Of a stretch of DNA of 64,000 bases, positions 4,667 to 31,094 are shown piece after piece. The DNA comes from Ornithinimicrobium cerasi (GTDB taxonomy: Bacteria > Actinomycetota > Actinomycetes > Actinomycetales > Dermatophilaceae): NCBI RefSeq assembly GCF_003702705.1, contig NZ_QZMN01000004.1, forward strand, positions 234,618 through 298,617, given 5' to 3'. The translations under genes were made by a program, and so were the position numbers. Numbering within the stretch: the stretch's first letter is position 1; every line of letters starts with the position of its first letter. The notes under the pieces are model-generated. The model did no database searches. It saw nothing but the letters and a program-made list of their open reading frames with translations, and was not told the DNA's origin.

Positions 4667-4719
4667 CACTTCCTTGTCTGAATACATTTAGTGCGATAGC
4701 ACAAGGAAGAGAGAACAGA

Positions 4720-6587: not shown

Positions 6588-6599
6588 GGGATTTCCCTA

Positions 6600-6936: not shown

Positions 6937-6940
6937 ATGC

Positions 6941-7738
6941 ATGACACTAACAACTACAAATTCAGCTGAGGTTTTTCGTCCGAACGTGACTGCGTTCGTT
7001 GCCTCCGACGTTCTCAATGATGAACTGCTGACGAAGATCACCACCGTAGCCGGTGCAGTAGAGGGCGATGAGCCTTCACTTCTAGTCGGTTACACACCTG
7101 ACGTTGGAGCAGCCTTCTACGCAGAAGGTCAGGAAATCACCGCTCAGACCCCGACATTGGGGCAGTGGGAAGTCAAGACCCATAAGGTCGCTGCCCTGGT
7201 CAACGTCACCAACGAACTGGACAGGGCTGGCAACGCTGGCAACGTCCTGGCAGAGGGTATGCGTAGGGGACTTGCCCGTAAGGCAAATGAGGCACTGTTC
7301 AACAACGCTTCTGCTCCTACCGGCATCCTCAACGACAGCGACCTTGCAGCCGCTACCGCTCTAGGCACGTCCCTAGACTCGTTCAACACTGCCTACTGGT
7401 CCATTGCTGAGACTGGCGTAACCCCCAACTACATCGTGGGTTCGCCTTCCGCTATGGCTGCTCTGGGCAGCATCAAGGCTGCTACCGGCAGCAACCAGCC
7501 ACTGGTGGACGACATGACCGTCATGGGTCTGCCGGTGTACGTGAGTACGGCTATGGCTGCTGACCGATTCCTGATCGGCCACACCAGCGCTGTCGTCTCT
7601 GCTGTAGGTCCGTTGCGACTGGCTAAGAGTCAGGATGCAGCGTTCGCCTATGACGCCACCAGCCTGCGAGCAACGTGGCGCTTTGGTTGGGCTGTCGTAC
7701 AGCCTGACCGACTAGCAGTCATCAGCACCGCTGCCTGA
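6941..7738 (+). CDS. HK97-fold major capsid protein
   Basis: 265 residues, shorter than many HK97 capsid proteins because the usual cleaved N-terminal delta domain is missing. Family signs are the N-arm and P-domain region VGYTPDVGAAFYAEGQEITAQTPTL followed by WEVKTHKVAALVNVTNELDR, then RRGLARKANEALFNN with a GILN turn. PNYIVGSPSAMAAL, LPVYVSTAMAADRFLIGHTS and a C-terminal WRFGWAVVQPDRLAVI follow. It would form the icosahedral shell. No protease, scaffold, portal or terminase gene is nearby, so assembly presumably depends on a helper phage or on self-assembly into an encapsulin-like shell. The leader has an unusual hairpin with the ribosome site in its loop. Confidence 0.85.
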   Translation: MTLTTTNSAEVFRPNVTAFVASDVLNDELLTKITTVAGAVEGDEPSLLVGYTPDVGAAFYAEGQEITAQTPTLGQWEVKTHKVAALVNVTNELDRAGNAGNVLAEGMRRGLARKANEALFNNASAPTGILNDSDLAAATALGTSLDSFNTAYWSIAETGVTPNYIVGSPSAMAALGSIKAATGSNQPLVDDMTVMGLPVYVSTAMAADRFLIGHTSAVVSAVGPLRLAKSQDAAFAYDATSLRATWRFGWAVVQPDRLAVISTAA

Positions 7739-7766
7739 TATCTCCTTAGATATCAAACCCCGGTGT

Positions 7767-7802
7767 TCCCCACCCTCGCTACTCATCCGGTGGGGGTGGG
7801 GA
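7767..7802 (+). terminator. Weak terminator-like hairpin after the capsid gene
   Basis: TCCCCACCC (7767-7775) is complementary to GGGTGGGGA (7794-7802), with an 18-base loop and only A/T-mixed bases after it. Confidence 0.4.
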
Positions 7803-7829
7803 CTAAAACTACACGGATGAGAGAAGTGG

Positions 7830-8114
7830 ATGAGGTTTATGAATACCAAGATGTGCAGCCGCTGCAAGCAGAGCAAAGACCTGTCGGCATTCCATCGTGA
7901 CAAGCACAAGACAATGGGAGTGAGCAGCATGTGTGCTGACTGTAAGAACGCAACAGACAGGCAGAAGCGTGCAGAGCGTCCACCTAAACCACGACTGCCG
8001 GAAGAGCATGGAACCGTCAAGCAGTATGTCCGTGGTTGTAAATGTCACGGTTGCAGACGAGCCAAGCGTCAGCAGAACGCAATGCGCTATCTGGGTGGGC
8101 ACCCATCCCTCTGA
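7830..8114 (+). CDS. Small double zinc-knuckle protein, HNH-associated type
   Basis: 94 residues. CSRCKQSKDLSAFHRDKHK followed by MCADCKNATDRQKR is a CxxC...CxxC zinc-binding unit like the N-terminal part of phage HNH endonucleases. A second C-x-C-x2-C set lies in GCKCHGCRRAKRQ. The HNH catalytic core itself is absent or not recognisable, so this may be a DNA-binding or packaging accessory protein rather than a nuclease. Start ATG 7830 follows GAGAGAAGTGG; ATG 7839 is an alternative. It lies 91 bases after the capsid gene, where phages often place head-proximal HNH genes. Confidence 0.68.
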   Translation: MRFMNTKMCSRCKQSKDLSAFHRDKHKTMGVSSMCADCKNATDRQKRAERPPKPRLPEEHGTVKQYVRGCKCHGCRRAKRQQNAMRYLGGHPSL

Positions 8115-15311: not shown

Positions 15312-16123
15312 CGCAGCACCCGCCGCCGCGCGTCGTGGCGACGGACTGCGACGGCACCCTCCTGCGCTCCGACGGCACCGTCTCGGCCTACACCCGCGAG
15401 GTCCTTCGTCGGGTCACGGGCGCCGGCGTCGGGGTCGTCCTGGTCACCGCCCGCCCGCCCCGCTGGATGGAGCCCCTCGCCGACCTGGGGGTCGACGGGC
15501 TCGCCCTGTGCGGCAACGGCGCCTTCACCTACGACCTGGCCAGCCGCACCGTCGTCTCCTCCCGCCTCCTCGAGCAGGAGGTGCTCGGTGAGCTGCTCGC
15601 GGACCTGCGCCGCGGCATACCCGGCATCCGTCTCGCCACGGAGGGGCTCGACGGGCACGCCCGCGAGCCCGGCTACGAGGGGGGTGCGCCCGACGACGGC
15701 GGGCTGGTCCGCGACGTCGAGGAGCTGGCCGGACGCGCGGTGGGGAAGGTGCTCGTGCGGCACGACCACCTGCACACCGAGGAGCTGACCGCCCTCGTCG
15801 CCGAGGTCGTGGGGGAGCGGGCCGAGGTGTCGCACTCGGGCGCGGTGCGGCTCACCGAGATCGGGCCGCGCGGGGTCACCAAGGCGGTGGCGCTCGCCGC
15901 CTGGTGCGCCGAGCAGGCGCCGCCGGTGGGGGCGCACGAGGTCTGGGCGTTCGGTGACATGCCCAACGACCTGCCGATGCTCTCCTGGGCGGGCCGATCG
16001 TTCGCGGTGGCCAACGCCCACCCGCACGTCCGGGCGGCGGCCAGCGACGCGGTCCCGGGCAACGACGAGGACGGCGTCGCGAGGACCCTCGCGGCGCTCC
16101 TCGGGCTCGGGGGTGCGGGGTGA
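15308..16123 (+). CDS. Cof-type HAD-superfamily hydrolase
   Basis: 271 residues from the GTG that overlaps the nuclease stop. HAD motif I is VATDCDGTLLRSDG (nucleophile Asp in DCDGT), motif II VLVTAR, motif III Lys in GVTKAVAL, and motif IV FGDMPNDLPML. Insertion of a C2 cap between motifs II and III places it in the Cof family of sugar-phosphate or nucleotide phosphatases. The substrate cannot be read from the sequence. Confidence 0.9.
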   Translation: MTQHPPPRVVATDCDGTLLRSDGTVSAYTREVLRRVTGAGVGVVLVTARPPRWMEPLADLGVDGLALCGNGAFTYDLASRTVVSSRLLEQEVLGELLADLRRGIPGIRLATEGLDGHAREPGYEGGAPDDGGLVRDVEELAGRAVGKVLVRHDHLHTEELTALVAEVVGERAEVSHSGAVRLTEIGPRGVTKAVALAAWCAEQAPPVGAHEVWAFGDMPNDLPMLSWAGRSFAVANAHPHVRAAASDAVPGNDEDGVARTLAALLGLGGAG

Positions 16124-16173
16124 GCCCGACCACGACCCACCCCTGACCGCCGGCCTCGACCGAAGGTGAACCG

Positions 16174-16611
16174 ATGGAGATGCACACCGGGCCGTGGCAG
16201 GGCACCTGCGGGTTCCGTCTGATGCCGGACGACGACCTCGCGGTCGCGCCCTCGAGCGCCCAGGTCGGCCCGGAGGCGACCAGGGCCGGCTGGTCGCTCC
16301 GGTACACCTGGGCCCATCCCCAGGACGGCGAGCAGGCCGGGGTGCTGCTGGTCGGAGGACCGGACGAGGAGGGGAGGATCACCGCCGCCTGGCTCGACAG
16401 CTGGCACCAGCGGCCGCAGGTCCGGCTCCTCGTCGGCACCACGACCATGCTCGAGACGGACTACGACGGCTGGGGGTGGCGGATCCTGGTCACGAGGTCC
16501 CCGGGCTCGCTGGGGCTCACCATGCACAACGTGGTCCCGGAGGGGAGCGAGGGGATGGACCCGGGACCCTACGTGGTCATGGAGGCCCGCTGGTCCCCGG
16601 TGGCCGGGTAA
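16174..16611 (+). CDS. Unknown protein, lipocalin-like (DUF1579 resemblance)
   Basis: 145 residues. Pattern of W-x-G (GPWQGTCGF), alternating beta strands, and a GWRILVTR...LGLTMHNV end resemble DUF1579-like lipocalin folds, but the match is only by eye. ATG 16174 follows AAGGTGA; ATG 16180 is an alternative. A G6/C6 hairpin follows the gene. Convergent with the YdhR-like gene. Confidence 0.65.
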   Translation: MEMHTGPWQGTCGFRLMPDDDLAVAPSSAQVGPEATRAGWSLRYTWAHPQDGEQAGVLLVGGPDEEGRITAAWLDSWHQRPQVRLLVGTTTMLETDYDGWGWRILVTRSPGSLGLTMHNVVPEGSEGMDPGPYVVMEARWSPVAG

Positions 16612-16612
16612 G

Positions 16613-16628
16613 CCCCCCCGGAGGGGGG
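16613..16628 (+). terminator. Short GC hairpin
   Basis: C6 (16613-16618) and G6 (16623-16628) with a 4-base loop directly after the stop codon at 16611; no T run. Confidence 0.45.
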
Positions 16629-16764
16629 TGGTGCAGAGCCGCCCGGTGTCCCGCCTCATCGTTCGCCGCGCGGGTCGGCGACGTGGGCGAGAATGAGGGT
16701 CCCCACCCGTGGTCGCTGATGCCGCCGCACCCACGCTCCACGGAGCCGGACCCTCGCAGGGCCG

Positions 16765-17073
16765 TCAGCGTCGGAGGACCGCCCGGGTGGTGGCGGAGAG
16801 CTCCTCGTTGACGGTGAACTCCTTGGCCACGATGTCGGTGATCCCGAAACCGGCCAGCCTCTCGGTGTGCTTCTCGACGTAGCGTGCCGCGGACCCGGCG
16901 TCCTCGAACAGGTAGACGCCACCCGCCGTCGACGTCTCGGGATGCTCCGTCCAGACCTTCCAGATCAGCCCGTCCTCGACCGAGATGTCCTGCGCCAGAG
17001 CCGCGTAGGCGGCGGCCGACTCCTGCCCGAACGGGCCCTCGGAGGGGAACTCGAAGTACAGCAGGGTGCTCAT
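16765..17073 (-). CDS. YdhR-like putative monooxygenase
   Basis: 102 residues with ferredoxin-like alpha/beta dimer features: LLYFEFPSEGPFG, EDGLIWKVWTEHPETSTAGGVYLFED and GITDIVAKEFTVNEELSATTRAVL. It matches the YdhR family of small putative cofactor-free monooxygenases. The ATG at 17073 is 81 bases downstream of the megasynthase stop on the same strand, so it could be the last gene of that operon and act on the product. Equally it may be an unrelated housekeeping gene. Confidence 0.75.
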   Translation of the reverse strand: MSTLLYFEFPSEGPFGQESAAAYAALAQDISVEDGLIWKVWTEHPETSTAGGVYLFEDAGSAARYVEKHTERLAGFGITDIVAKEFTVNEELSATTRAVLRR

Positions 17074-17154
17074 GGTGTCGCCCTTCGTGTCGGTCGTCCC
17101 AGTCTCGGGCAGGCCGAGCCGGCACGTCCACCGGCGCGCCTGGCGTGGCGCGGG

Positions 17155-20100
17155 TCAGCGCCCCCGGAAGGCCCGCAGGTATGACGTCGGCACCACCTCG
17201 TTCCCCAGGTGCAGCGGAGCCGCCGTGACCCCCGTCGACACCAGCGCGTCCCAGTAGGCGAGCGCGAGTGCCGGATCGACCACGCCGTGCACCAGGGGGA
17301 GGTCCGGGTGCCGGGACTGCAGCAACGACTCGAGCTGGCACGAGGGGATGCTGTCCGGGAGGCGCAGGCTCATCACCCCGGCACGCTGGGCGTCGTCGAG
17401 GACGCCTGCCACCGGCCGCCGCTCGACCGGTCCACAGCTCAGCAGACCCCCGCCGACGACGAGCACGTCGCCCGCCCCGGCCATGCGGCGCCGTGCGGCC
17501 CCCACGTCGAAGCAGTGCGGGAAGGAGTCGTCGACGACGACGGTGCCGGGGCGCAGACGGTCGACGTCGACCAGGTGCGGGCCGCCGCTGACGGCGCCGA
17601 CGATGAGGTCCGCCTCGTAGACCTCCGGGGCCGGCGACGGGTCCGTGCACGTCACGACGACCTGACCCGGGTAGCCGGCGCTCGTGAGCTCCGCGGCGCG
17701 CTCGGTCAGGTGCTCGCGCCGGCCGGGGACGTCGCACAGCACCAGGCGCGCGGGTGACCCCGCTCGGTCGAGGAGCAGCTGCAGGGAGGACCGTCCGATC
17801 GAGCCCAGGCCGACGACCGCCACGGTGCACCCGTCCAGGTCGACCCCGGCCTGCTCCAGGGCGGCGGCGGTCGTCATCACGACCGAGGCAGCGGTCGCCG
17901 CGTGGCCCGTGGACACCCGGACCGCCCTGCCGTCCAGCCGGCGGACCACCCCCAGGCCGTAGGCCGTGTGCGAGGGGATCATGCCCGCGAGCGAGACGCA
18001 CCGGGCACCCAGGTCGGCGGCGTGCTCGACCGCCCTGGCGGTCTCCGCCGACAGGGTTGTCCCTGCCCGGCCGGCGAGCTCGTCGGCGAACAGGGGAAGG
18101 CAGAGGAAACCGGAGCTCCCGAGCGGGGAGTCGATCTGCTCGAGGAGCCGCGCCCGCCCGTCGGTGAACAGGTGGGCGCGGATCGCCTCCCGCGAGGCGC
18201 GCGAGGACGGCATACCGACGTGGGCGAGGAGGTCGCCCGGCGCGGGCAGGTAGCCCACGATCGCCGCGTCGAGCACCCCGGACGGCACGCCCGGTCCCCG
18301 CTCTCCTCCGGCCTCCGCGGTCAGCGGGCCCCCAGCCCGCCCCGTACGGGGTGGGTGAGCAGCCATGGCGACCAGATCGCGACGGAGCCCCTCCGCCACC
18401 ACCTCGCACCTGTCCTCGCTCAGGACGTCGACGGCGGCGCGCAGGGTGACCCGTAGCCCGTCGTCGTGGGGACGTGCGCTGAGGAACAGGTCGGTGCCGA
18501 TCGGGGGCGGTTCCATGTCACCCCCCTCCGGGTCCCAGACGAGGCGCAGCGTGCGTCCGGTGATCGCGCCGAGCGAGCCGAAGTCCAGGTAGCTGAAGGC
18601 GAACTGCGCCCCGAAGGAGGACGGGCCGCCCCCGTGGGCGGCAGGCGCACCGACGAGGTCGTGCATCGTGGCCCCCCCGGTGCGCGCGCTGGTCACCGAC
18701 CGGCTGACGGCGCGCAGCTGCTCCCGGACGGTGCCCTCCCCGGCCAGGCGGACGGGCACGAGGTGCGCGAAGGGGCCGACGATCCGGGTGATGTCCCGCG
18801 ACGGGTGGTCGCGTCCGGTCGTCGCGACCCCCACCACGAGGTCCGGCTGGCCCGTGAGACGCGCCAACGCACGGAAGAAGGCGGTCAGCAGCGGGGCGTA
18901 CGGGGTCGCCCCCTCCTCCGTCGCCAGCCGGCGGAGCGCGCCGGCGGTGCTGCCGTCGAGGAGGAAGGTCCGCCGCAGGGGAGCCTTCCCCTCCGCGTCA
19001 CGGGGCGCGTCCGGGGAGCGTAGCCGGGGTGCGGCGTAGGGGGCCGACCCCGCACCCGCCAGCTCCGACCCTCCCGACCCGGTCTCCCCCCGGGCGAGGA
19101 GAGCGGCGTGGTCGCGGAACGTGCGGCGCAACGGGGGCAGCTCGGCGGGACTCCCTGTGGCGAGAGCGTCGTAGAGCGCCATGAGGTCCTTGGCCAGCAG
19201 GACGACGCTGTAGCCGTCCGCGACGGCGTGGTGGCCGTGCACGAGCAGCGCGTGCTCCTGCGGCGCCAGCTCAAGGAGGTGGAGGCGCACCAGGGGCCAG
19301 CCGGAGGGGTCGAACCGGTGGCGGCGCTCCTCGGCCACCCGTGACGCCAGGTGCTCGGGCTCGACCTGCTCCGTCCCGACGGTGATCGTGCACGGTTCAG
19401 GCACCTCCCGCTGCAGGGGCGGTCGACGGTCAGGCAGGAGAGCCGTGCGCAGCATGGGGTGGCGGGCCACCAGGAGGTCGGTCGCCCGCTGGAACAGCAC
19501 GGTGTCCAGGGGGCCGTGGACGCGGAAGCAGCTCACCCAGCTCGACCGGGCGTCGGGGGACAGCGCCTCGGCGAGCAGGAAGCCTCGTTGGGCCGGGGTC
19601 AGCGGGAAGGGCTCGAGGGGGTGGGTATGCCGTGACTCGCCGGCGTCGGGAGTCGGCACCGCGCCGCGCCCCCCGGTGGGGTCCCCCGCGTCGGTCGCGG
19701 AGGTGGCGACGCAGGCGTCGACGGCCGTCGCGAGGTCCGCGAGCCTGCGGTGGCGGTACATCAGCGTCGGCGCGGGGAGCACCGGGACGTGCGGCTCCAG
19801 CCGGGCGAAGACGTCGAGCACGGCGATCGAGTCCCCGCCGAGGGCGAAGAAGTCGTCGTCCCGGGACACCGCGACCCCGAGGACGGCACCCCACACGTCC
19901 GCGAGCAGCGCCTCGGTCGCGGTCAGCGCGAGGTCCGCACCTGTTCCCGCGCCGGCCGTGACGTCGAGCGCGTCGACGGCGGGCAGGGCTCCGCGGTCGA
20001 TCTTCCCGGCGGCCGTCAGCGGCAGGTCGTCGACCAGCCGGATCCGGGAGGGCACCATGTAGTCGGGCAGCAGTGCGGCGAGGTGCTCACGCAGGCCCTC

Positions 20101-23100
20101 GACGTCGACGTCACCCGCCCGACCGTTGTCCGAGGGTGCGCGTCGAGGCTGGACGTGGGCGACCAGCCTCGGCCCCCCGCCGGCGGCCACCGCCTCCGGC
20201 AGCACCGCAGCACGCTCGAGCCCGGGGTGCCCCTCCAGCACCGCCTCGATCTCGGCGGGCTCCACCCGGTGACCGCGGATCTTGACCTGCCGGTCCGTCC
20301 GTCCCAGGAGGTCCAGCCGCCCGTCGGCACGACGCACGACCCGGTCGCCGGTGCGGTAGAACCGGGTCCCGGACCGCTCGACGAATGCGCTCTCCGTCAG
20401 CTCCGGCTCGTCGAGGTAGCCGGCCGTCACCCCTGGACCGGCCAGGAGCAGCTCCCCCGGCTCCCCGGGCGGACAGCTGCTCCCGTCCGCCCCGACGACG
20501 TCGACCACGGTGCCTGCGACGGGCCGGCCGATCGGGATGCGGGTGACCGCGTCGTCGGGCCGTGCGTCGACGACCTCGTAGGTGGCGTTGATCGTGGCCT
20601 CGGTGGGGCCGTACAGGTTGACCACCCGGTGAGCGGTGCCGAAGAGGTCGAACCAGCGGCGCACCAGGTCGGCCGGGAGCGGCTCGCCCCCGACGTGGAC
20701 CCAGCGCAGCGAGCCCAGGTCCGGGGGGGACCCGGTGCCGGCCGCGCGGCGCTCGGAGGCGCGCAGGAGCTCGCGCCACAGGGTCGGCACCGAGCTCCAG
20801 ACGGTGACCCTGCGCCGCTCCACCTCCGCGAGGAGCGACTGCGGGTCGCGTAGCACGTCGGGTGCCATCACCTCGACCGTGGCGCCGACGAGGAGGGGGG
20901 CGAGCAGCTGCCGCACCGAGGCGTCGAAGCAGCTGCTGGCCGTGGCGGCCATCCGGTCCCCGGTGACGTACCCGAAGGTCCTGATGGCCCAGTCGAGGTA
21001 TGCCGTCAGGGCCCGGTGGGTCACGGGGACGCCCTTGGGCCGGCCCGTGGTGCCGGAGGTGAAGATGACGTAGGCCTCGTCCTCCGGTCGGACGGGGGCG
21101 TCCGGCAGGTCGGGGGACCCGGGTGCACCGTCGTCGGCGAGCTCGTCGAGGTCGACCACGGACACCGACGGGATCCCGTCGGCGAGCCGGCGCGTGGCCG
21201 CGTGGCAGACCACCGCCCGGGCGGCGGTGCGTGCAGCCTGGTCCGCGAGGCGGGGCGACGGGTGACGCGGGTCGAGCGGCACCCAGGACGCTCCGCAGCA
21301 CAGGATGCCGACGAGGCCCGCGACCGTGTCCGCACCGGGCGTGGTCAGCAGCACGACGCGGTCGCCCGGCCGCACCCCCTCACGGCGCAGACGCCGGGCG
21401 ACCCCGCGCGCGCGGTGCTCGAGCTCGGCGTAGCTCGTCGTCCCTTCGTCGCTCCGGACGGCCACCGCGTCGGGTGCCCGTCGGCACTGCTCGAGGATCC
21501 GGCCGGCCAGCCCCCACGGTGCCGCGCCAGCAGGAGCGAGCCCCGCCACGGAGGTCAGCCCGGCGAGCAGCTCGTCGGTGAGACGGTCGATGGTGGCCGG
21601 GGTGAACAGGCGCGCCGGGTAGTTCCACGAGAGGTGCAGGGAGCCGGCGAACTCCCAGCAGACCAGGCTCAGCCGGGTCGCGGCGGACGCGGTCCGCGCC
21701 GCGGTGGCGGTGACCCTGACCGGGCAGCCGGCGGGGGCCTGGAGGGGGAAGCGCGCGAAGCTGAAGCTGGCAGCCGCCGCCGTGCGCGGGACGGCGTCGA
21801 CCGCGGGCAGAGCCCTGGCCAGGTCGAGCGAGCTGACGCTGCCGTGCGTCTCGGTCTCCAGCCAGGCCCGGCGCACGCTCCGGGCCAGGTCCCCGGGGGC
21901 CTCGTCGTGCGTGATGGCCACGGTCAGGGGAAGGGTGTCCGCGAACGGCCCGACGACCCGGTCGATGCCGGGGAGGCGCGCGTCGCGCCCTGCCCGCGCC
22001 ACGTTGACGGTGACCTCGGGTCGGCCGGACAGGTCGGCCAGCAGCCGGACGTAGGCCGACAGCACCAGGTGGAAGAGCGAGACGTCGTGCTCCGCGGCCC
22101 GGACCCGCAGCGCGTCCGTGACCGCGGCCGGGAGGGCGAGCTGGGAGGCTCGCAGCGGCGGCGCCGGGTCGGCGGTCGGGTCCCCGTCGTACGGGAGGGG
22201 GGCCGGGGGAGTCGCTGCCCCGAGCCGCTCCCGCCAGTACGTCACGTCGGTGCGGAAGGCCTCCGAGCCGCGGCCCTGCGCGCTGACCCTGACCTGGTCC
22301 CGGAAAACCGACGACAGCGGGGGCAGGTCGGGTGGCCGTCCCTCGCCCAGCGCGGTGTAGACGTCCCAGAGCTCCTCGCACAGGACGTGCAGACTGCCTC
22401 CGTCCGCCGCGGCGTGGTGCACGACCACCACGAGGTGAGCACGCCCGGCGTCCTCCCGCAGGAGCGCGACGCGGATCGGCGGTTCGGTCCGGAGGTCGAA
22501 CGTGCGGTTGCAGAGCGCGTCCTCGACGTCCTCGACCGGACGGTCCAGGTCGGACACGGTGAACCACCCGGGGCGGACGTCCCCGGCAGGGGTCCCGATC
22601 AGCTGGTGCAGGTCGGCTCCGTCCGGGCGCAGCCGCATGCGCAGCATGGGGTGGCGGTCCTCCAGGACGGCGAGAGAGCGTGCCAGGAGCGTCTCGTCGG
22701 GCGGTCTCGACAGCGTGAGCCGCACGCAGGCGTAGGCGGCGACGCCAGGATGCAGCACCCCTGTCGTGTGGAACGCCTGCTGCACGGGCGTCACCCCGAA
22801 GGTCGCCTCCTCCCCCTCGTCCTCCTGCGCCCCCGCCTGCGGGTCCTGCCCGGCCGCAGCCCCGGCCGCCCGGGGCGCGGGGTCGTCGGACCGTCCCACC
22901 GGCCCTCCCCGGGGGAGCGGGGAGGACGAGAGGTATACCGTCAGCTCGGCGACCGAGGGGTGCTCGAAGAGCAGCGTCGTCGGGAGCGCACGACCCAGCA
23001 CCTCCTCGAGCCTCTTGACGAGGTCGACGGCGGTCAGCGAGTCCAGCCCCATCGTGAGGAAGGACGCGTCGTCGTCCAGCTCCTCGGGCCGTTGCCCGAT

Positions 23101-26100
23101 CTCGGGCGCGATCAGACCGGCGACCAGGTCGCGCACGCCCGGTTGGTCGGCTCCCGGTCCGGGCGCGGACCGCGTCCCGAGCGTGGCGACCGTGCCGGCC
23201 GGCCGGGCCGGCTCGGGCGGAGGTGGGCTCGACAGCTCGCCCGCCGCCCCCCGCTCGCGCGGGGCGGTGACGTGGGGCGCCCCACCCGCCGCCTCCAGGA
23301 CCAGGAGCTGCGCTGCCGTCACGGAGGGTGCGTCGCACAGTGCCCGGAGCGCGGCCTCGGGCACCAGCTGCGGCACCTCCCGCGTCCTGGTGGCCAGCGC
23401 GAAGAGCGGCGACCCAGCCATGCCGGTCCCCGTCCAGGCGGCGAAGTTCAGCGACTGCATCGGCCTGCCGGCCGCGCTCTCCGTCGCGGCGAAGGCGTCG
23501 AGGAAGGCGTTGGCAGCGGCATACGGAGCCTGGCCGCCCGCGTAGCCGGGCAGCGCGGAGCTGATGGAGGAGAAGAGCATGAAGGTCGACGGCCGCCGGC
23601 CGTGGCGATCGAGGGCGCGGGTGAGGAGCAGGGTGCCCCTGACCTTGGGTGCCAGGACCTCCTCGACGGCCTCGGCGGGCAGCGACCTCAGGGCCCCGGC
23701 GTGGGTGAGGCCGGCGGCGTGGAACACGCCGTCCAGGTCCGGGAGCCCGGCGACGAGCCGCTCGACGTCGGCCGGGGAGCCCAGGTCGGCGGAGACGTAG
23801 CGCGGGGAGGCACCCATGTGCTCCAGGTCCGCGAGGAGCCCCGGTCGGCAGGACGGCGACCGGCCGACCAGGACGATGCTCGGATGTCCTCGGGCGGCGA
23901 GGTGGCGGGCGACGGCCGAACCCACCCCTCCGGCGCCGCCCGTGATCAGGTACCGGCCGTCGACGGGCAGCCCCCCGTCCCGGTCGCGCCGGAGCGCCGT
24001 GCCAGCACGGGCCACCCTGGTCAGCCGCCGTCCACCCCGCCAGGCCACGGACTCGCCGTCCCCGGGGCGGGGGGCCGCGTCCACCTCCCGGACCAGCGCC
24101 TCGAGGCGGTCCGGGAGGTCGTCCAGCGAGGACAGGTCGACGACCCGGACCCCCTGGGAGTCGTCCTCCTCGGGCAGCGCCGTGGACAGCGCCGCCAGCA
24201 CCGACTGTCCCGGACGCGGACGTTCGACCGTCACGGCGGTCCGGACGACGTCCTCGGTGACGACGACCAGCGGCGTGGGCCGTCCGGCGAGATGACTGCT
24301 CACCGTCCGCAGGAGGGAGGACGCACCCTGCACGACGTCGTCCAGCACCTGCACGGTGTCGAGGTCGACGGCCGGACCCGCCAGCAGGACCATCACGGAG
24401 GCGGGAGGGCAGTCGGCCAGGGCCTCCACCGGGGGCCGGTGGACCGTCACTCCCCGGCGGGTCAGCCGGTCGGCGAGCGGCCCGGCCAGGTCGTCGTGAA
24501 CGCCCACGAGGCAGACGCTGTGCACGACCGTGCCGGCGGGGAGCGCCGCCTCCTGCCAGCCGAAGGGGTGCAGGAGGGCCGAGACCTGGGGCTCGGCACT
24601 GCCGTGGGCGGGAGCCTGGGGGAGAGGCTCGGGCAGCCAGTGGCGGCGTCGCTGGAAGGGGTAGGGGGGTACGTCGACGCGGGGACGCCCGGGAACGGCG
24701 GGGGGCGGGGCGACGGGGACACCGACCGCCCACAGGTGGCCCACCGTCCCGACCAGCTCCCGGGCGTCGGGGGTGGTGGGGCCCAGCAGGGGAAGGACCT
24801 CGACGTGACCGGGGGTGCCCAGGGCGCCGGCGACGGAGCTCACGGTGGCGCTGAGGGCCATCCCGGGACCCACCTCGACGAACGTGTCGTACCCCTCCTG
24901 CAGCAGGCGCTCGACAGCCGGACCGAACCGGACGGGCAGGCGGGCGTGGTCCGCCAGGTAGGCCGGGTCGAGGGTCGGCGACCACTCGCCCGTCACGGTG
25001 CTGAGCAACGGGACCTCGGGCGGTCCGGGCCCCAGGTCGCGGGCCGCCGCGCGCAGGGCGTCCAGCGCAGGGTCCATCATCGCGGAGTGGAAGGCACGGG
25101 AGACCCGGAGCCGCCGGACGCGGCAACCGCGGTCGACCCACAGCGCCGTGGCCGCCTCGACGGCCGCCGCGGTCCCCGAGACGACGAACCGGCCCGGCCC
25201 GTTGAGCGCCGCCAGCGAGAGGTCCCCGGCGGACCCGTCCACCACCGGCAGCACCTGGGCCTCCGCGCCGGACACCGCGACCATGGCTCCCGGGGCGCAG
25301 TCCCGCTGCATGGTCCGGCCGCGCTCCATCGCGAAGCGGACGGCCTCCGCGGGCGTCAGCGCGCCGGACACCCCCGCGGCGGCGAGCTCGCCGACGCTGT
25401 GCCCGAGCACGGCGTCGGCGCGGACGCCCCACGCGCGCAGCTGGTGCGCGAGGCAGATGCCGAAGGCGACGACGAGCGGCTGCGCGACCGCGGTGTCGGC
25501 CAGCTCCTCGGGGTCGGCGTCAGCGTCCAGGGACCACCCCAGCAGGTCCTGCCGCCCGACCGGCCCGGTCGCGGCGGACAGCTCCTCGAGGAGGGACCGG
25601 TAGGCCGGCTGCGACCCGTGGAGCCAGGCGCCCATGCCGGGGACCTGCGAGCCCTGCCCGGGGAAGAGGAGCGCCACCCGCGGCCGCCGGCGCGCCTCCA
25701 CCCCCACCGTGCCGCGCCCGAGGACCTCCTCCAGCCGCCAGGCGAGATCGCCCTGGACGGCGATCCCCAGCCGGTGCCGGGAGGGGTCCCGGGCGGTGGC
25801 GACGCTGCGGCAGACGTCGTCCTCGTCGAGGTCCGGGTGGCTGCGGACGTGGGCGGCCAGGTCCGCGGCCGCCACCCGCAGCGCACCCTCCGTCGCGGCC
25901 GAGAGCGTCAGCAGGTGGGGACCGGGGCTCGTGCCACCGTCGGCGGGCGGGGGCTCGTCGAGGGCCTGCTCCAGGATCACGTGCGCGTTGGTCCCCCCGA
26001 AGCCGAAGCTGTCGATGCCGGCGCGCAGGGGCGGCGGACCGGTCCACGGCCTGGGCTCGGTCACGACGGAGAGGCCGGCCGAGGCGAGGTCGAACTCCGG

Positions 26101-29100
26101 CGAGGGCCCGGAGTAGTGGAGGGACGGCGGGAGCCGGCGGTGGTGGAGAGAGAGCACCACCTTGAGCAGGCTCGGCATACCGGCCGCGTTGAGCAGGTGC
26201 CCGACGTTGGTCTTGACCGAGCCGATCCACCGCGGCCCGTCCGAGGCAGGGAAGCTGCGCATCAGGGACCGCGCCTCGATCGGGTCGCCGATCGCGGTGC
26301 CGGTCCCGTGGGCCTCGACGTAGCTGACGGTCGCGGGGTCGATGCCGGCGTCCCGGTATGCCGCCCCGATCACCGCCTCCTGCAGCAGCGGGTTTGGCGC
26401 CATCAGGCTCAGCGAGCGGCCGTCGTTGTTGACCGCGCTCCCGCGGACCAGCGCGAGCACCCGGTCGCCGGCGGCCCGTGCGTCCGGGAGGGGTTCGAGC
26501 ACGAGGGCAGCCGCGCCCTCGCCCGGCACGAAGCCGTCGGCCCCGGCGCTGAAGGCGCGGCTGCGGCCCGTCGGGGACAGCGCCTGCGCGGCCTCCAGCA
26601 GCTGGTGGGTCGTCGGCGTGAGGTTCAGGTGCACCCCGCCCACGACCGCCAGGTCGCACTCGCCGGCCTCCAGGCTGCGTCGCGCCTGGTGCAGCGCGAC
26701 GAGCGCGGACGAGCACGCCGTGTCCACCACCATGGCGGGTCCGGACAGGTCGAGGTGGTGAGCCACCCGGGCGGCGACCAGGTTGCGGAGGTTGCCCACG
26801 AGGGCTGCGGCGGAGGGCGCGAGCCCGTCGTCCAGCGCCCGGCGGAGCAGTTCCGGGTAGCCGCTCTCGCCCACCGCCACGAAGACGCCGATGCGACGGC
26901 CACGGCGGCGAGCCCCGGCATACCCGGCCCGTTCGAGCGCCTCGTGGGCGACCTCGAGCAGGAGGCGGGCGTGCGGGTCCGTCACCGCGGCCTCGGCGGG
27001 GGTGAGGCCGAAGTAGTCCGCGTCGAACCCGGCGACGTCGTCGAGGAACGCGCCCCAGCGGGCGCGAGCCCCATCCGGCACCTGCCAGCGGGAGGTCGGC
27101 ACCTCGGTGACGCTGTCCCGGCCGGCGACGAGGTTGGCCCAGAACTCCTCCGGCGAGTCCGCGTCCGGGAGACGGCACGCCAGCCCGACGACGGCCGCCG
27201 GTGACGCCACCGCCCGGTCGCGCGCCGGCCCGGCAGGAGCAGCGACCTCGGCAGGAGCAGGGACCTCGCCCCGGTCGGGGCCGGGAGCCCGGTCGCCCCG
27301 GTCGAGAAGATGGTCGGTGAGCGCGCCCACCGTGGCGCAGTCGCGGAGCAGGGCCGGCTCCAGCGGACCACCGAAGACCTCCTCGAGCCGACCGAGGACC
27401 TGCATCGCGGTGAGGGAGGAGCCGCCGATGGCCAGGAAGCGGTCGTCGGTCCCGATGATGCCGGCCGGCACCTGCAGGACCTGGGCCCAGATGTCGGTGA
27501 CGAGCGCCTCGACCTCCCCCCGGGCCGTCGGAGCGGCCGAGGTCGGGGGTGGGCCGGTGGTGCACGCGGCCGCCACGTCCTGCTCGAGCGTGACGAACTC
27601 GCCGGCCACCAGGAGCTCGCGCAGCCGGCCCCGGCGGATCTTGCCGCTCGTCGTGCGGGGGAAGGTCTCGGGCGGGACGGGGAGCACGAGCACGTCCGGG
27701 TGGGCCAGGGCCTCGCGCACCCGGGTCCGGACGGCCAGGAGGACCGCGCTCGCGGCGTCGAGGTCCGGAGCGCGGGCGGTGAGGAACACGGCGACCCGCT
27801 CCGAGGCGGTGATCGGGTCGGGGTAGCCCACGACGGCGACCCGGCCTGGGGGCACCCCGGGCGTCGCGGTGACGACCTGCTCCAGGTCGTGGGCGTGGAA
27901 CTTCTGCCCGTTGACGAAGAGCACGTCCTTGGCGCGACCGGTCACGCAGAGCCGTCCGGCTCGGAGAAAGCCGAGGTCGCCGGTGCGCAGCCAGCCGTCG
28001 ACGAAGGTCTCGGCCGTCTCCTGCGGTCGGTCGTGGTATCCGGCCGCGACGTTCGGGCCGCGGTACTCGATCTGCCCCACCACGGAGTCAGGGACGACGT
28101 TCCGGTCGTCGTCGACGATCCGCAGCTCGCCGCCGCGGACCGCGACGCCCACGTCCATGAGCTCCACGGGGTGCGCCCGGTGCTCGTCGGCGGGTGTCAG
28201 CTCCTCGCCCACGTCCACGTCCACGTCCACGTCGACGGCACGGCCGTCCGCGAGCGCCTGCCGGTCCAGGGCGAGCGGTTCTGCGAGCTCGCCCAGGGGA
28301 GGAAAGGTCACGGCGACCGTCGCCTCGGCGAGGCCGTACAGCGGCACGAGGGCCCAGGGGTCCAGGCCCGCGGGCCGCAGGTGCTCGCGGAAACGCCGCC
28401 AGGCGCGGGAGGGGATCGGCTCCGAACCGACCCCGACGAGCCGGACGGTGCTGAGGTCGAGCGCGGCGACCTGGTCGGCGGACACCCTCCGGAGCGTGAG
28501 GTCGAGCGCGAAGCTGGCCATCGGCAGCAGGGTGGCCCGGTGCCGGGTGGCGGTCTGGTACCACAGGACGGGGCGCTTGCCGAAGTCGGCGGCCCCCATC
28601 GTCACCTGCTTCATGCCGACCGCGAGCGGGGTCAGGTGGGCGCCGATGAGGCCCATGTCGTGGAAGTACGGCAGCCAGGTGACCAGGACGTCGTCCGCCC
28701 TCGCCGCCCCCGCGGTCCGAGCCTGCTCGATGTTGGCGAGGAGGTTGGCGTGCGTGAGCCGGACCCCCTTGGGTGTCCCCGTGCTGCCGGAGGAGAACTG
28801 GAGGAACGCGACGTCGGTCGGAGCGGCCACGTGCACGTCCGCGACCGGGGGCGAGGCCTGCAGCGTGGCGATGTCGAGCAGCGCCAGGCTCCCCTCCTCA
28901 CCGACTGTCAGGCCTCCCCCCAGCTGCGACCTCAGCGTGGCGTCCACGACGAGCGGCAGTCGGCCCAGGTGGCCCCACACGGGCAGGACCCTGTCCGGGA
29001 CGGGGGCCAGCGGCACGGGCAGGAGCCCGGCGGCCAGGGCACCCCAGAAGGCGGGCAGGAAGGACCCGGAGTCGGTCGGGAGGACGATGACGGGCGCACC

Positions 29101-29274
29101 GGGCGCCAGGCCGGCCGACATGAGGCCTCCGGCCACCCGGAGCGAGCTCTCGAGGAGCCCCCGGTGGGTCAGCGTGCGCTCGGCGCCCTCGCCGTCGACC
29201 TGCACGATGACCTGGTCCGCCCGGTCGCGTGCCGCGTCCAGGAGCAGGTCCAGGACGGTGCGCTCCCGGTTCAT
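17155..29274 (-). CDS. Hybrid FAAL-PKS-NRPS megasynthase with terminal acyl-ACP-reductase-like domain
   Basis: 4039 residues from the ATG at 29274, which overlaps the transferase stop (ATGA). Order: fatty acyl-AMP ligase (1-575; FSSGSTGTPKGV near 165); ACP (Ser620); ketosynthase (690-1100; Cys854 in DTACSSAL, His989, His1026); acyltransferase (1200-1490; Ser1293 in GHSVGE, RAFHS, so malonyl type); ketoreductase (1600-1950; GGAGGVGS, Tyr1918); ACP (Ser2079); condensation (2150-2580; HHAAADG); adenylation (2610-3080; FTSGTTGRPKG, NLYGPTEATIN, final GKIDR); PCP (Ser3149); second condensation (3215-3640; HHAVADG); reductase-like domain (3660-4039; VVGLGSIG, VSTGHAATA, Cys3979 in PSCQLES). No DH, ER or thioesterase. 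Inferred chemistry: a free fatty acid is activated, extended by malonate, ketoreduced, and joined to one amino acid. Release is probably reductive. The last domain aligns by eye with cyanobacterial acyl-ACP reductase. Confidence 0.9.
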   Translation of the reverse strand: MNRERTVLDLLLDAARDRADQVIVQVDGEGAERTLTHRGLLESSLRVAGGLMSAGLAPGAPVIVLPTDSGSFLPAFWGALAAGLLPVPLAPVPDRVLPVWGHLGRLPLVVDATLRSQLGGGLTVGEEGSLALLDIATLQASPPVADVHVAAPTDVAFLQFSSGSTGTPKGVRLTHANLLANIEQARTAGAARADDVLVTWLPYFHDMGLIGAHLTPLAVGMKQVTMGAADFGKRPVLWYQTATRHRATLLPMASFALDLTLRRVSADQVAALDLSTVRLVGVGSEPIPSRAWRRFREHLRPAGLDPWALVPLYGLAEATVAVTFPPLGELAEPLALDRQALADGRAVDVDVDVDVGEELTPADEHRAHPVELMDVGVAVRGGELRIVDDDRNVVPDSVVGQIEYRGPNVAAGYHDRPQETAETFVDGWLRTGDLGFLRAGRLCVTGRAKDVLFVNGQKFHAHDLEQVVTATPGVPPGRVAVVGYPDPITASERVAVFLTARAPDLDAASAVLLAVRTRVREALAHPDVLVLPVPPETFPRTTSGKIRRGRLRELLVAGEFVTLEQDVAAACTTGPPPTSAAPTARGEVEALVTDIWAQVLQVPAGIIGTDDRFLAIGGSSLTAMQVLGRLEEVFGGPLEPALLRDCATVGALTDHLLDRGDRAPGPDRGEVPAPAEVAAPAGPARDRAVASPAAVVGLACRLPDADSPEEFWANLVAGRDSVTEVPTSRWQVPDGARARWGAFLDDVAGFDADYFGLTPAEAAVTDPHARLLLEVAHEALERAGYAGARRRGRRIGVFVAVGESGYPELLRRALDDGLAPSAAALVGNLRNLVAARVAHHLDLSGPAMVVDTACSSALVALHQARRSLEAGECDLAVVGGVHLNLTPTTHQLLEAAQALSPTGRSRAFSAGADGFVPGEGAAALVLEPLPDARAAGDRVLALVRGSAVNNDGRSLSLMAPNPLLQEAVIGAAYRDAGIDPATVSYVEAHGTGTAIGDPIEARSLMRSFPASDGPRWIGSVKTNVGHLLNAAGMPSLLKVVLSLHHRRLPPSLHYSGPSPEFDLASAGLSVVTEPRPWTGPPPLRAGIDSFGFGGTNAHVILEQALDEPPPADGGTSPGPHLLTLSAATEGALRVAAADLAAHVRSHPDLDEDDVCRSVATARDPSRHRLGIAVQGDLAWRLEEVLGRGTVGVEARRRPRVALLFPGQGSQVPGMGAWLHGSQPAYRSLLEELSAATGPVGRQDLLGWSLDADADPEELADTAVAQPLVVAFGICLAHQLRAWGVRADAVLGHSVGELAAAGVSGALTPAEAVRFAMERGRTMQRDCAPGAMVAVSGAEAQVLPVVDGSAGDLSLAALNGPGRFVVSGTAAAVEAATALWVDRGCRVRRLRVSRAFHSAMMDPALDALRAAARDLGPGPPEVPLLSTVTGEWSPTLDPAYLADHARLPVRFGPAVERLLQEGYDTFVEVGPGMALSATVSSVAGALGTPGHVEVLPLLGPTTPDARELVGTVGHLWAVGVPVAPPPAVPGRPRVDVPPYPFQRRRHWLPEPLPQAPAHGSAEPQVSALLHPFGWQEAALPAGTVVHSVCLVGVHDDLAGPLADRLTRRGVTVHRPPVEALADCPPASVMVLLAGPAVDLDTVQVLDDVVQGASSLLRTVSSHLAGRPTPLVVVTEDVVRTAVTVERPRPGQSVLAALSTALPEEDDSQGVRVVDLSSLDDLPDRLEALVREVDAAPRPGDGESVAWRGGRRLTRVARAGTALRRDRDGGLPVDGRYLITGGAGGVGSAVARHLAARGHPSIVLVGRSPSCRPGLLADLEHMGASPRYVSADLGSPADVERLVAGLPDLDGVFHAAGLTHAGALRSLPAEAVEEVLAPKVRGTLLLTRALDRHGRRPSTFMLFSSISSALPGYAGGQAPYAAANAFLDAFAATESAAGRPMQSLNFAAWTGTGMAGSPLFALATRTREVPQLVPEAALRALCDAPSVTAAQLLVLEAAGGAPHVTAPRERGAAGELSSPPPPEPARPAGTVATLGTRSAPGPGADQPGVRDLVAGLIAPEIGQRPEELDDDASFLTMGLDSLTAVDLVKRLEEVLGRALPTTLLFEHPSVAELTVYLSSSPLPRGGPVGRSDDPAPRAAGAAAGQDPQAGAQEDEGEEATFGVTPVQQAFHTTGVLHPGVAAYACVRLTLSRPPDETLLARSLAVLEDRHPMLRMRLRPDGADLHQLIGTPAGDVRPGWFTVSDLDRPVEDVEDALCNRTFDLRTEPPIRVALLREDAGRAHLVVVVHHAAADGGSLHVLCEELWDVYTALGEGRPPDLPPLSSVFRDQVRVSAQGRGSEAFRTDVTYWRERLGAATPPAPLPYDGDPTADPAPPLRASQLALPAAVTDALRVRAAEHDVSLFHLVLSAYVRLLADLSGRPEVTVNVARAGRDARLPGIDRVVGPFADTLPLTVAITHDEAPGDLARSVRRAWLETETHGSVSSLDLARALPAVDAVPRTAAAASFSFARFPLQAPAGCPVRVTATAARTASAATRLSLVCWEFAGSLHLSWNYPARLFTPATIDRLTDELLAGLTSVAGLAPAGAAPWGLAGRILEQCRRAPDAVAVRSDEGTTSYAELEHRARGVARRLRREGVRPGDRVVLLTTPGADTVAGLVGILCCGASWVPLDPRHPSPRLADQAARTAARAVVCHAATRRLADGIPSVSVVDLDELADDGAPGSPDLPDAPVRPEDEAYVIFTSGTTGRPKGVPVTHRALTAYLDWAIRTFGYVTGDRMAATASSCFDASVRQLLAPLLVGATVEVMAPDVLRDPQSLLAEVERRRVTVWSSVPTLWRELLRASERRAAGTGSPPDLGSLRWVHVGGEPLPADLVRRWFDLFGTAHRVVNLYGPTEATINATYEVVDARPDDAVTRIPIGRPVAGTVVDVVGADGSSCPPGEPGELLLAGPGVTAGYLDEPELTESAFVERSGTRFYRTGDRVVRRADGRLDLLGRTDRQVKIRGHRVEPAEIEAVLEGHPGLERAAVLPEAVAAGGGPRLVAHVQPRRAPSDNGRAGDVDVEGLREHLAALLPDYMVPSRIRLVDDLPLTAAGKIDRGALPAVDALDVTAGAGTGADLALTATEALLADVWGAVLGVAVSRDDDFFALGGDSIAVLDVFARLEPHVPVLPAPTLMYRHRRLADLATAVDACVATSATDAGDPTGGRGAVPTPDAGESRHTHPLEPFPLTPAQRGFLLAEALSPDARSSWVSCFRVHGPLDTVLFQRATDLLVARHPMLRTALLPDRRPPLQREVPEPCTITVGTEQVEPEHLASRVAEERRHRFDPSGWPLVRLHLLELAPQEHALLVHGHHAVADGYSVVLLAKDLMALYDALATGSPAELPPLRRTFRDHAALLARGETGSGGSELAGAGSAPYAAPRLRSPDAPRDAEGKAPLRRTFLLDGSTAGALRRLATEEGATPYAPLLTAFFRALARLTGQPDLVVGVATTGRDHPSRDITRIVGPFAHLVPVRLAGEGTVREQLRAVSRSVTSARTGGATMHDLVGAPAAHGGGPSSFGAQFAFSYLDFGSLGAITGRTLRLVWDPEGGDMEPPPIGTDLFLSARPHDDGLRVTLRAAVDVLSEDRCEVVAEGLRRDLVAMAAHPPRTGRAGGPLTAEAGGERGPGVPSGVLDAAIVGYLPAPGDLLAHVGMPSSRASREAIRAHLFTDGRARLLEQIDSPLGSSGFLCLPLFADELAGRAGTTLSAETARAVEHAADLGARCVSLAGMIPSHTAYGLGVVRRLDGRAVRVSTGHAATAASVVMTTAAALEQAGVDLDGCTVAVVGLGSIGRSSLQLLLDRAGSPARLVLCDVPGRREHLTERAAELTSAGYPGQVVVTCTDPSPAPEVYEADLIVGAVSGGPHLVDVDRLRPGTVVVDDSFPHCFDVGAARRRMAGAGDVLVVGGGLLSCGPVERRPVAGVLDDAQRAGVMSLRLPDSIPSCQLESLLQSRHPDLPLVHGVVDPALALAYWDALVSTGVTAAPLHLGNEVVPTSYLRAFRGR

Positions 29275-29903
29275 GCGGGGCGCTCCGTGCAGACCGTGAC
29301 GAGGACGTCCCGGGCGGGGGAGGTGCTGGTGAGGGTCCACGAGCCGGCCAGCTCCCCGAGCAGTGCCGGTGCCGCCCCCGAGCAGTCGACGCCGACGGTC
29401 CTGGGGTCCTGGCCCAGCCCGGCACCGGTCGCCTTGAGGAAGGCCTCCTTGGCGGTCCACAGCCGGAAGAACCGGTGGTGCCACGCGGGACCGGCCGGGA
29501 CCTCGTCCACCCAGGACAGCTCGGGCGGCGACAGGCAGCGTCGGACGAGCGACGGGGAGACGGGGCGCACCGTCTCCAGGTCGATCCCCACGCGCCCGGC
29601 CGCGCTGAGCGCGGCTGCGACCCAGCCGCCGCTGTGCGACATCGAGACGTCGAGGGGAGGGTCGGTGCGGGGGCGGCCGTCCGGGCCCCGGCGCAGCGGC
29701 GCGCCCCGGCCCGCCGTCAGGTCCTGCATCAGGACCCAGCCGAGGGCGGACGCCAGACGGTCCTCGCGCCGCAGCAACGCGGCGACCCGCGACCGCTCGA
29801 CGGTCGGAAGACGTCGGACCAGCGCGTCCAGGGCGTCCACCGACAGGTCCGGGCAGCGTCGGACGCGGACGAGCGTGTCGGGATCCCCGGCACTCCTCGC
29901 CAT
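29271..29903 (-). CDS. 4'-phosphopantetheinyl transferase, Sfp type
   Basis: 210 residues. Magnesium and CoA motif GIDLE (Asp108, Glu110) and W149-T-A-K152-E153-A are present, with PLDVSMSHSGGW before them. It would load phosphopantetheine onto the two ACPs and the PCP of the adjacent megasynthase. The stop TGA overlaps the megasynthase ATG, so the two are co-translated, which ties their functions together. ATG 29903 is the start. rnpB lies upstream on the same strand; the promoter should lie in 29904-30025. Confidence 0.93.
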   Translation of the reverse strand: MARSAGDPDTLVRVRRCPDLSVDALDALVRRLPTVERSRVAALLRREDRLASALGWVLMQDLTAGRGAPLRRGPDGRPRTDPPLDVSMSHSGGWVAAALSAAGRVGIDLETVRPVSPSLVRRCLSPPELSWVDEVPAGPAWHHRFFRLWTAKEAFLKATGAGLGQDPRTVGVDCSGAAPALLGELAGSWTLTSTSPARDVLVTVCTERPA

Positions 29904-30025
29904 TGGTCAACCATTCGCCGCGGGGGGACCTGCCCCAGGCACGGTCCCGACGGTTGCTCGCTCGGACGAGAGCAACGTAGCGCAACGCCGACCTGACGGC
30001 CGAGCAGATTGGCAGGGGTGGTGTG
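29904..30025 (-). promoter_or_regulatory. Intergenic region between rnpB and the megasynthase operon
   Basis: Contains a 7-bp inverted repeat GTTGCTC (29953-29959) / GAGCAAC (29970-29976) with a 10-base loop, either an operator for the transferase-megasynthase operon or part of the rnpB end. No clear -35/-10 pair was read. Confidence 0.35.
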
Positions 30026-30410
30026 GATGAGTCGGCCGGTACGCCGGGTTCTGTCCCTCCGCGCCGTCACCGGCACTGCGGAGGTGGCGACCATCCATCT
30101 ACGACGACCGTTGCCGGTCGCCTCCAGCGGCCTACCCGTGCGCTCGGGCGGGCAGCCCTCGGACACGCACTGTCTGGCCTTGCTCCAGGTGGGGTTTACC
30201 GAGCCACGCCAGTCACCTGACGTGCTGGTGGTCTCTTACACCACCGTTTCACCCTGACCCACCGCCGGGGCGGTGGGCGGTCTGTTTTCTGTGGCACTGT
30301 CCCGCGGGTCACCCCGGGTGGCTGTTAGCCATCACCTCGCCCTGTGGAGCCCGGACGTTCCTCGGCGGGCACCCTCTCGGGGCCCGACGCGGCCGCCTGG
30401 CCGACTCATC
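30026..30410 (-). ncRNA. rnpB: RNase P RNA
   Basis: About 385 nt, bacterial type A. The RNA starts GATGAGTCGGCC and ends with the complement GGCCGACTCATC, forming helix P1. Conserved interior elements include the 5' GAGGAA-like stretch read in reverse near 30350 and the 3' CTTACACC-type and GGCAGTGC-type core around 30160-30240. It folds into the catalytic subunit that matures tRNA 5' ends. The exact ends are set from P1 pairing and may differ by a few bases. Confidence 0.93.
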
Positions 30411-30434
30411 CACGACCGCCCAGTCTAGCGCCGC

Positions 30435-31094
30435 TCAGAGCACCGTCGGGCCGGCGTCGCGCAGGTCGATCAGCTCGACCCCGCCGTCGGCGCCGTAGGC
30501 CTCGATGTGCTTCAGGTAGATCGCCCGCCCGGCGTCGACGAGGAGCCCGTCGTGGATGGGGACCACCCCCCGCGCCGGACCGATCCGCCGGACGAACTCG
30601 ATCGTCTCGGACACCTTGCCCCACGGGGCGCTGACCGGCACGCACAGCACGTCCACGTCGCCCGGCTCCCCGTCGAGCGCGTCGCCCGGGTGGTAGACCG
30701 AGGGCTCGCCCTCCGACCTGAGGACGACCCCGACGTTGCCGATCCGGTCGAGGTAGGGGTGGATCTCGGCGTGCACCTCGCCCACGGGCGTCACGCGGAG
30801 GTGACCGAGCTCGAGAACCTGGCCGGTCGACATACGCTCCGCCCGGTCGGCGAGGCCCTCCCGGGCGAGCACCTCCGCGGTCTGCGGCTCGACGAGCACG
30901 CGCGCCCGAGGGTTGGCGCGCAGCAGGGCCGGCAGCTGCTCGAGGTCGCAGTGGTCGGGGTGCTGGTGGGTGACGACGACGGCGGTCAGGTCACGCTGCC
31001 CGCCCACGTCGGAGAAGTTGCCGGGGTCGACCAGCACGCGCTGGTCGGCGGACTCGACGAGGAGGCAGGCGTGGCCGAGCGAGGTGAGCTGCAT
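30435..31094 (-). CDS. Metallo-beta-lactamase-fold hydrolase
   Basis: 219 residues from the ATG at 31094 (MQLTSLGHACLLVE). The metal motif is THQHPDHCD, further ligands are in GEVHAEIHPY and YHPGDAL, and PIHDGLLVD is near the C terminus. This is the UPF0173/UlaG-like branch of MBL hydrolases; the substrate is unknown. TACCGT at 31101-31106 (minus strand) stands six bases before the ATG, so transcription may be leaderless. Divergent from guaB1. Confidence 0.87.
   Translation of the reverse strand: MQLTSLGHACLLVESADQRVLVDPGNFSDVGGQRDLTAVVVTHQHPDHCDLEQLPALLRANPRARVLVEPQTAEVLAREGLADRAERMSTGQVLELGHLRVTPVGEVHAEIHPYLDRIGNVGVVLRSEGEPSVYHPGDALDGEPGDVDVLCVPVSAPWGKVSETIEFVRRIGPARGVVPIHDGLLVDAGRAIYLKHIEAYGADGGVELIDLRDAGPTVL

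Follow-up and report, generated by a model that had tools for sequence, protein, structure and literature searches.

The window analysed here, a stretch of 64,000 nucleotides from Ornithinimicrobium cerasi, contains a megasynthase gene on its minus strand (17155..29274; 4039 amino acids plus stop), and the encoded protein displays the domain order FAAL-ACP-KS-AT-KR-ACP-C-A-PCP-C-TAD. This order was assigned by Pfam and NCBIfam models and, for the terminal domain, which we call TAD-type after its closest solved relative, the TAD of the carmabin biosynthetic pathway, by PDB matches, fold and motifs. The frame is real and lies on the minus strand; the plus strand is interrupted by stops. A longer version with a TTG start (17155..29985, minus strand) also appears among the open frames, and the ATG at 29274 chosen in the original prediction overlaps the stop codon of an upstream 4'-phosphopantetheinyl transferase (PPTase) gene (29271..29903, minus strand; ATGA), which had not been mentioned there and whose product is the probable activating partner of the megasynthase. 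On the other side, a YdhR-family gene (16765..17073, minus strand) follows 81 bp downstream on the same strand and is a possible member of the operon. The neighbouring genes in the window are of the housekeeping kind, namely RNase II, HAD, IMPDH, ROK, M24 peptidase, GlnA and GlnE. Further away, the block 4001-8000 has a GC content of 0.538, compared with 0.64-0.76 in the other blocks, and possibly constitutes a foreign stretch.

The protein starts with the FAAL (residues 1-560; 27595..29274, minus strand like all domains below), to which fatty acyl-AMP ligase models of NCBIfam are closest, with PRK09192 on top (E 8.6e-99, 331 bits, under the full-length cut-off of 600 bits), and which would activate a free fatty acid as acyl-AMP in order to load ACP1 (residues 585-660; 27295..27522), the first of three PP-binding stretches recognised by Pfam (GGSSL). 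Elongation may then proceed via the KS (residues 690-1165; 25780..27207; Pfam ketoacyl-synt N and C, DTACSS and both His motifs), the AT (residues 1200-1530; 24685..25677; Pfam, GHSVGE and RAFH) and the KR (residues 1560-2010; 23245..24597; Pfam, Tyr motif present, LDD motif absent), which together would add malonate and perform one reduction to leave a 3-hydroxyacyl chain on ACP2 (residues 2040-2115; 22930..23157; Pfam and motif). Judging from its two motifs, we take the AT to be malonyl-type, and the type of the KR is likewise presumed from motif rules. Subsequently, the condensation domain C1 (residues 2155-2580; 21535..22812; Pfam, HHAAADG), the adenylation domain (residues 2590-3100; 19975..21507; Pfam) and the PCP (residues 3110-3190; 19705..19947; Pfam, GGDSI) would couple one amino acid, picked by a near-invariant pocket whose code, DARSHGLIN, yielded no reliable prediction of the residue. 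A second condensation domain, C2 (residues 3200-3620; 18415..19677), with an intact HHAVADG motif and likewise absent from the original prediction, is placed between the PCP and the TAD-type release domain (residues 3640-4039; 17158..18357).

Genome mining for FAAL-NRPS proteins with the same end, which the original prediction had suggested, revealed a whole family. A scan of genome contigs was evaluated for the best 80 of 128 relatives, and in 76 of these loci C2 and the TAD follow each other in order, the exceptions being L006, L048 and L058, which are cut by a contig end, and L077, which is disrupted. Where at least 9.9 kb of upstream DNA is available, the order KS-AT-KR-ACP-C-A-PCP-C-TAD is found in 63 of 67 loci (exceptions L077, L027, L019 and L008), and a FAAL was seen in 48 of the 67, the remaining 19 possibly including loci whose flanks end before the FAAL. 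The code of the adenylation domain reads DARSHGLIN in 61 of 73 sequences, DARSHGLVN in 11 and DARSQGLIN in one; owing to this near-uniformity, a single kind of amino acid is probably activated throughout the family. The relatives belong to Streptomyces, Kineococcus, Herbidospora, Nonomuraea, Microtetraspora, Actinoplanes, Couchioplanes, Ornithinimicrobium and Nocardioidaceae. Interrupted frames occur in the homologues L077, L003, L027, L031 and L121/L123, reflecting either sequencing error or decay.

Matches to the release domain were counted at several taxonomic levels. Among 59 related genomes, that of the window counted in, four have a match, which for two of the four is a weak one, and among 31 other genomes of the same genus a single one, an Ornithinimicrobium MAG (G025, which carries locus L002), has the domain. 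Within Streptomyces, 199 genomes were sampled, and 30 of these gave a match at E 1e-10. In 27 the E value is below 1e-160; of the remaining three, one is a different protein and two are broken or partial copies. The class-level sample gave 11 of 394 genomes at E 1e-15, and the phylum-level sample 17 of 396 at E 1e-8, made up of four strong matches and 13 distant stand-alone proteins.

Comparison of the surroundings did not disclose conserved neighbours among the loci compared, and the idea of a conserved biosynthetic cluster around the megasynthase gene was dropped. Downstream, no ORF family (antisense ORFs included) is present in more than 13 of the 73 loci with at least 4 kb of sequence, and upstream no family is common to more than two of ten loci, whose flanks extend for about 9-10 kb in four cases, 5.4 kb in one and less than 0.6 kb in five. 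When the PPTase and YdhR genes were sought in 81 loci, most of which stop short of the gene start, the sole match was the window's own YdhR gene. A homologue on a Streptomyces fungicidicus plasmid has no further PKS or NRPS gene within 9 kb before and 20 kb after it. Moreover, the HAD and metallo-hydrolase genes lie 14.3 kb apart in the window (16123-30435), as compared with about 0.65 kb (L126), 1.65 kb (L147), 1.9 kb (L148), 2.3 kb (L149) and 5.8-5.9 kb (L145 and L146) in six genomes of the same genus, none of which gave a release-domain match; in L150 the HAD gene was not found within the stretch examined, in L142 RNase II is close by, and the other loci compared are too short. The megasynthase gene occupies a variable site and was probably acquired.

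The release domain itself reaches no Pfam cut-off over the last 400 residues of the protein. The original prediction had assigned the last about 380 residues to the plan of cyanobacterial acyl-ACP reductase (AAR) on account of four motifs, GFLCLPLFADELAG, VSTGHAATAAS, VVGLGSIGRSS and PSCQLESLL, all of which are present exactly, with the cysteine of the last at residue 3979 as numbered there. An end devoid of thioesterase and SDR-type reductase had also been claimed correctly, as no such match exists among the Pfam and NCBIfam results for the C-terminal part. The reductase (R) domains of NRPSs are of the SDR type; here, SDR-like models match the internal KR only, and no SDR domain appears at the C-terminus.

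A single-sequence PDB search with the C-terminal 400 residues returned 9e4x and 9e4s at the top (E 1.1e-42 and 1.3e-42), chains that are named 'Amino acid adenylation domain protein' in the PDB. These belong to the carmabin TAD entries (9e4s, 9e4u, 9e4x, 9e50 and 9e56), the titles of which name complexes with NAD and NADH. By the same search, AAR (E 0.0013-0.0014) ranked no better than a FolD chain (0.0015), with glutamate dehydrogenases starting from 0.013, and Pfam gave sub-threshold matches to THF_DHG_CYH_C (25.4 of 27 bits), ELFV_dehydrog and 2-Hacid_dh_C; hence a plain amino-acid dehydrogenase or FolD-like domain had to be considered. Yet when a profile of 35 rows was searched against the PDB, the carmabin TAD chains (3.4e-61), PigE (4ppm; 2.3e-9) and AAR (1.2e-5) were the only matches at E 0.001. 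Likewise, in a Foldseek search with an AlphaFold2 model of the domain (mean pLDDT 90.7), ranks 1-10 were all entitled 'TAD from Carmabin Biosynthetic Pathway' (TM by query 0.85-0.88, E 4e-35 to 1e-32; 376-388 columns, which is the whole domain), followed at ranks 11-17 by AAR chains (0.61-0.66) and then by dehydrogenases, which score 0.27-0.39 among the matches listed. A dehydrogenase or FolD-like domain, tied with AAR by single sequence but rejected by profile and fold, is consequently very improbable. The resemblance to AAR, in turn, is upheld by the profile search, from which FolD has vanished, and by the fold. The checks by HMM and structure that the original prediction had outlined against AAR, SDR and dehydrogenase families therefore bore out the AAR fold but placed the carmabin TAD first. 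Identity alone is not decisive, being 28-31% to the carmabin TAD and, by alignment, 31% to a TAD stretch (319 columns) and 27% to an AAR fragment (193 columns).

The relation to both relatives was examined in an alignment of 27 sequences, comprising eight members of the window family, the carmabin stretch, one Pantoea protein (L083), two Streptomyces proteins (L113 and L084), AAR, PigE and 13 stand-alone actinobacterial proteins. A set of TAD-side motifs, derived in this alignment and not from a published definition, is found in all 12 rows of that side: GH (TGH in 11 rows, IGH in L021), GxGS(I/V)G, an Asp after beta2 and DDSxP(H/Y)C(F/W). Three of these, GH, the Asp and DDSxP(H/Y)C, are present in 12 of 12 TAD-side rows against none of the 15 AAR-side rows, which have GN (13) or GS (2) instead of GH and lack both the Asp at the beta2 position and the HC insert throughout. 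Their nucleotide loop has an extra residue (GATGSIG-like) in 14 of 15, with the short form in L105, and GGFTS appears in seven, replaced by variants elsewhere (G(G/A/M)(F/L)T). The window domain carries the TAD-side set, that is TGHAAT (residues 3789-3794; 17893..17910), the loop GLGSIG (residues 3822-3827; 17794..17811), Asp3848 after beta2 (LCD; 17731..17733; invariant in 35 aligned rows), DDSFPHCFD (residues 3915-3923; 17506..17532) and Cys3979 (17338..17340), and within the 27-row alignment shows none of the AAR-side motifs GGFTS, TGN and GATGxIG. The column of Cys3979 holds a cysteine in all 25 rows that reach it (12 TAD-side rows and the 13 stand-alone proteins of the AAR side; the AAR fragment ends short of it), and among the 73 long rows of the family, including the window, this cysteine is present in 73 and DDSFPHCF in 72. 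The original placement of Cys3979 in the cysteine column of the superfamily therefore stands.

A maximum-likelihood tree split the two sides with a support of 100/98, with the window domain on the TAD side, and the split persisted (100/99 and 100/100) when the long rows of either side were omitted. As far as these sequences go, the tree shows a separation of sides and not strictly a clade, given that the groups were named from motifs beforehand, the window's own family supplies eight of the 12 TAD-side rows, the AAR row is partial (46% of columns), a long-branch warning was raised and rooting was by midpoint only.

Several related proteins were encountered alongside. The 13 stand-alone ones of the AAR side (L093-L105) measure about 363-458 amino acids and come mostly from small actinobacterial genomes. 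A stand-alone TAD-side protein on a Pantoea stewartii plasmid (L083, NZ_CP046586.1, 9692-10981) is 44% identical to the carmabin TAD stretch. Its gene is flanked by genes for a PKS, a luciferase-like monooxygenase and NRPSs, and TAD chemistry may perhaps operate in trans there. Another, on a Streptomyces plasmid (L084, NZ_CP107890.1, 11842-13038), is close to ACP and KS genes, while a 611-residue TAD-side protein of Streptomyces (L113, 4677-6512, minus strand) has a different setting with AMP-binding, GcvT-like and PLP-dependent genes. A further stand-alone relative (L144, 6041-7234, minus strand), not placed on either side, neighbours a protein kinase/periplasmic-binding fusion and an alpha/beta hydrolase, with none of the other megasynthase domains matched nearby.

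NAD(H) is usually the cofactor selected where beta2 ends in an acidic residue, and Asp3848 is accordingly expected, from its position in the alignment, to favour it. The titles of the carmabin TAD entries further report that Cys2238 forms a disulfide with dephospho-CoA, so that this cysteine is reachable by a pantetheine-like thiol; Cys3979 aligns with chain position 334 of 9e4x, one of seven cysteines in the stretch that may be the Cys2238 of the title. Besides fold, TAD-side motifs, cysteine and NAD-type loop, the carmabin TAD shares with the window domain its being part of an NRPS protein, although it differs by its low identity and its cyanobacterial pathway, and in the window protein the domain is preceded by C2 and the assembly line opens with a FAAL-PKS part. 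The product of the carmabin pathway, carmabin A, bears a C-terminal amide (PMC6164609), as do hectoramide B and vatiamides E/F (PMC10949194), and the 434-residue domain after the PCP of hectoramide HcaD and vatiamide VatR is believed to do the terminal amidation (PMC10949194). From entry titles, position and product we infer that TAD denotes a terminal amidation domain and equals the 'amidotransferase' domain of hectoramide. Ammonolysis is the hypothesis of those authors, who state that mechanism and enzymology 'have not been studied' (PMC10949194, 2024). Because these products are C-terminally amidated, the window domain most likely makes an amide by analogy, and aldehyde release becomes a rival instead of the favourite. 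We thus consider it moderately probable that this single gene encodes a complete synthase of a lipo-amino acid that ends in a TAD-type release domain. The PCP-bound chain would pass to Cys3979, the putative acyl-accepting residue of an NAD(H)-binding TAD, where ammonia would most likely attack it and free it as an amide. Among the genes adjoining the megasynthase, none was recognised as a supplier of ammonia.

Alternatively, NADH could reduce the thioester on Cys3979 to an aldehyde or further to an alcohol, which is the AAR-type reductive release conceived in the original prediction. It would be in keeping with the AAR superfamily fold, the shared cysteine and the NCBIfam matches to PigE (E 1.5e-13) and AAR (E 1.9e-4), both of which are far under cut-off (20.9 bits against a curated 449.7 for the AAR model TIGR04058). 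Nevertheless, we regard it as unlikely, since TAD is far closer than AAR by sequence, profile and fold, the AAR-side motifs are missing, Asp3848 points to NAD(H), whereas NADPH is the cofactor in an AAR structure (title of 6jzy), and no aldehyde-handling neighbour stands out, nor any widely shared downstream family. AAR (6jzq, 6jzu, 6jzy and 6jzz) is moreover unfused to a megasynthase, and PigE, albeit an AAR-side domain within a larger natural-product enzyme, is joined to an aminotransferase. Hence the observed AAR resemblance was right, but a fused, aldehyde-forming AAR-type module of unseen kind is not the best reading of it. Among other candidates, the reductase of nostocyclopeptide NcpB likewise releases C-terminally without a thioesterase (PMC12184294), but the window protein has no SDR match at its end, and the available text gives no sign of a TAD-kind domain in NcpB. 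Neither did the available text on the solanimycin system show a relation to TAD, nor did a partial literature search support a columbamide/serinol route.

The main puzzle of the assembly line is C2, which is intact and sited where HcaD, according to the available description, has nothing. The HcaD/VatR domain resembles the window domain in that about 430 residues follow the last PCP and replace a thioesterase (a likeness by description; PMC10949194), but those proteins have an N-methyl-valine module and no C domain in between (PMC10949194). The TAD of the window is C-terminal without directly following the PCP, so that substrate or chemistry may differ. HHxxxDG is intact in C2 of all 73 long rows, and C2 is conserved about as well as C1, with a mean identity to the window of 47% versus 50% (56 rows). 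This conservation, together with the adjacency of C2 and TAD in 76 of the best 80 of 128 relatives, would also suit a scenario in which C2 itself releases the chain by means of a soluble amine, or else links chains, leaving the TAD-like domain to carry out some other NAD-linked step, e.g., to liberate ammonia from an amino acid or to oxidise a bound intermediate. We judge this improbable, as the cysteine is invariant in the family and the disulfide of the carmabin TAD with dephospho-CoA fits direct handling of a carrier-bound chain. Under the preferred amide-forming reading, our guess is that C2 acts before release, either to attach a second unit or to link two chains, for instance via the 3-hydroxyl. 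A more specific proposal, which we put forward tentatively and with considerable doubt, is that the actinobacterial one-gene synthases feature a new C2 plus TAD release, with C2 as the last condensation and the NAD(H)-binding TAD taking the chain on Cys3979 and amidating it. If true, such an ending would differ both from release by a thioesterase, an SDR reductase or AAR and from the PCP-TAD order of hectoramide.

As far as searched, the novelty lies in one-gene FAAL-PKS-NRPS synthases of actinobacteria that end in a TAD-type domain and carry an intact C domain between it and the PCP, and in how widely these are spread, and a partial literature search recognised no paper on an actinobacterial TAD megasynthase or on TAD structures. 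If the proteins do form a TAD family, they would provide one-gene Streptomyces systems for a direct test of the release chemistry and of the C-TAD arrangement, and would point to a class of lipids, made by common actinomycetes, whose products are as yet unassigned. The value of the family would lie in the enzymology of terminal amidation in such NRPS pathways, which is unstudied according to the available text of PMC10949194.
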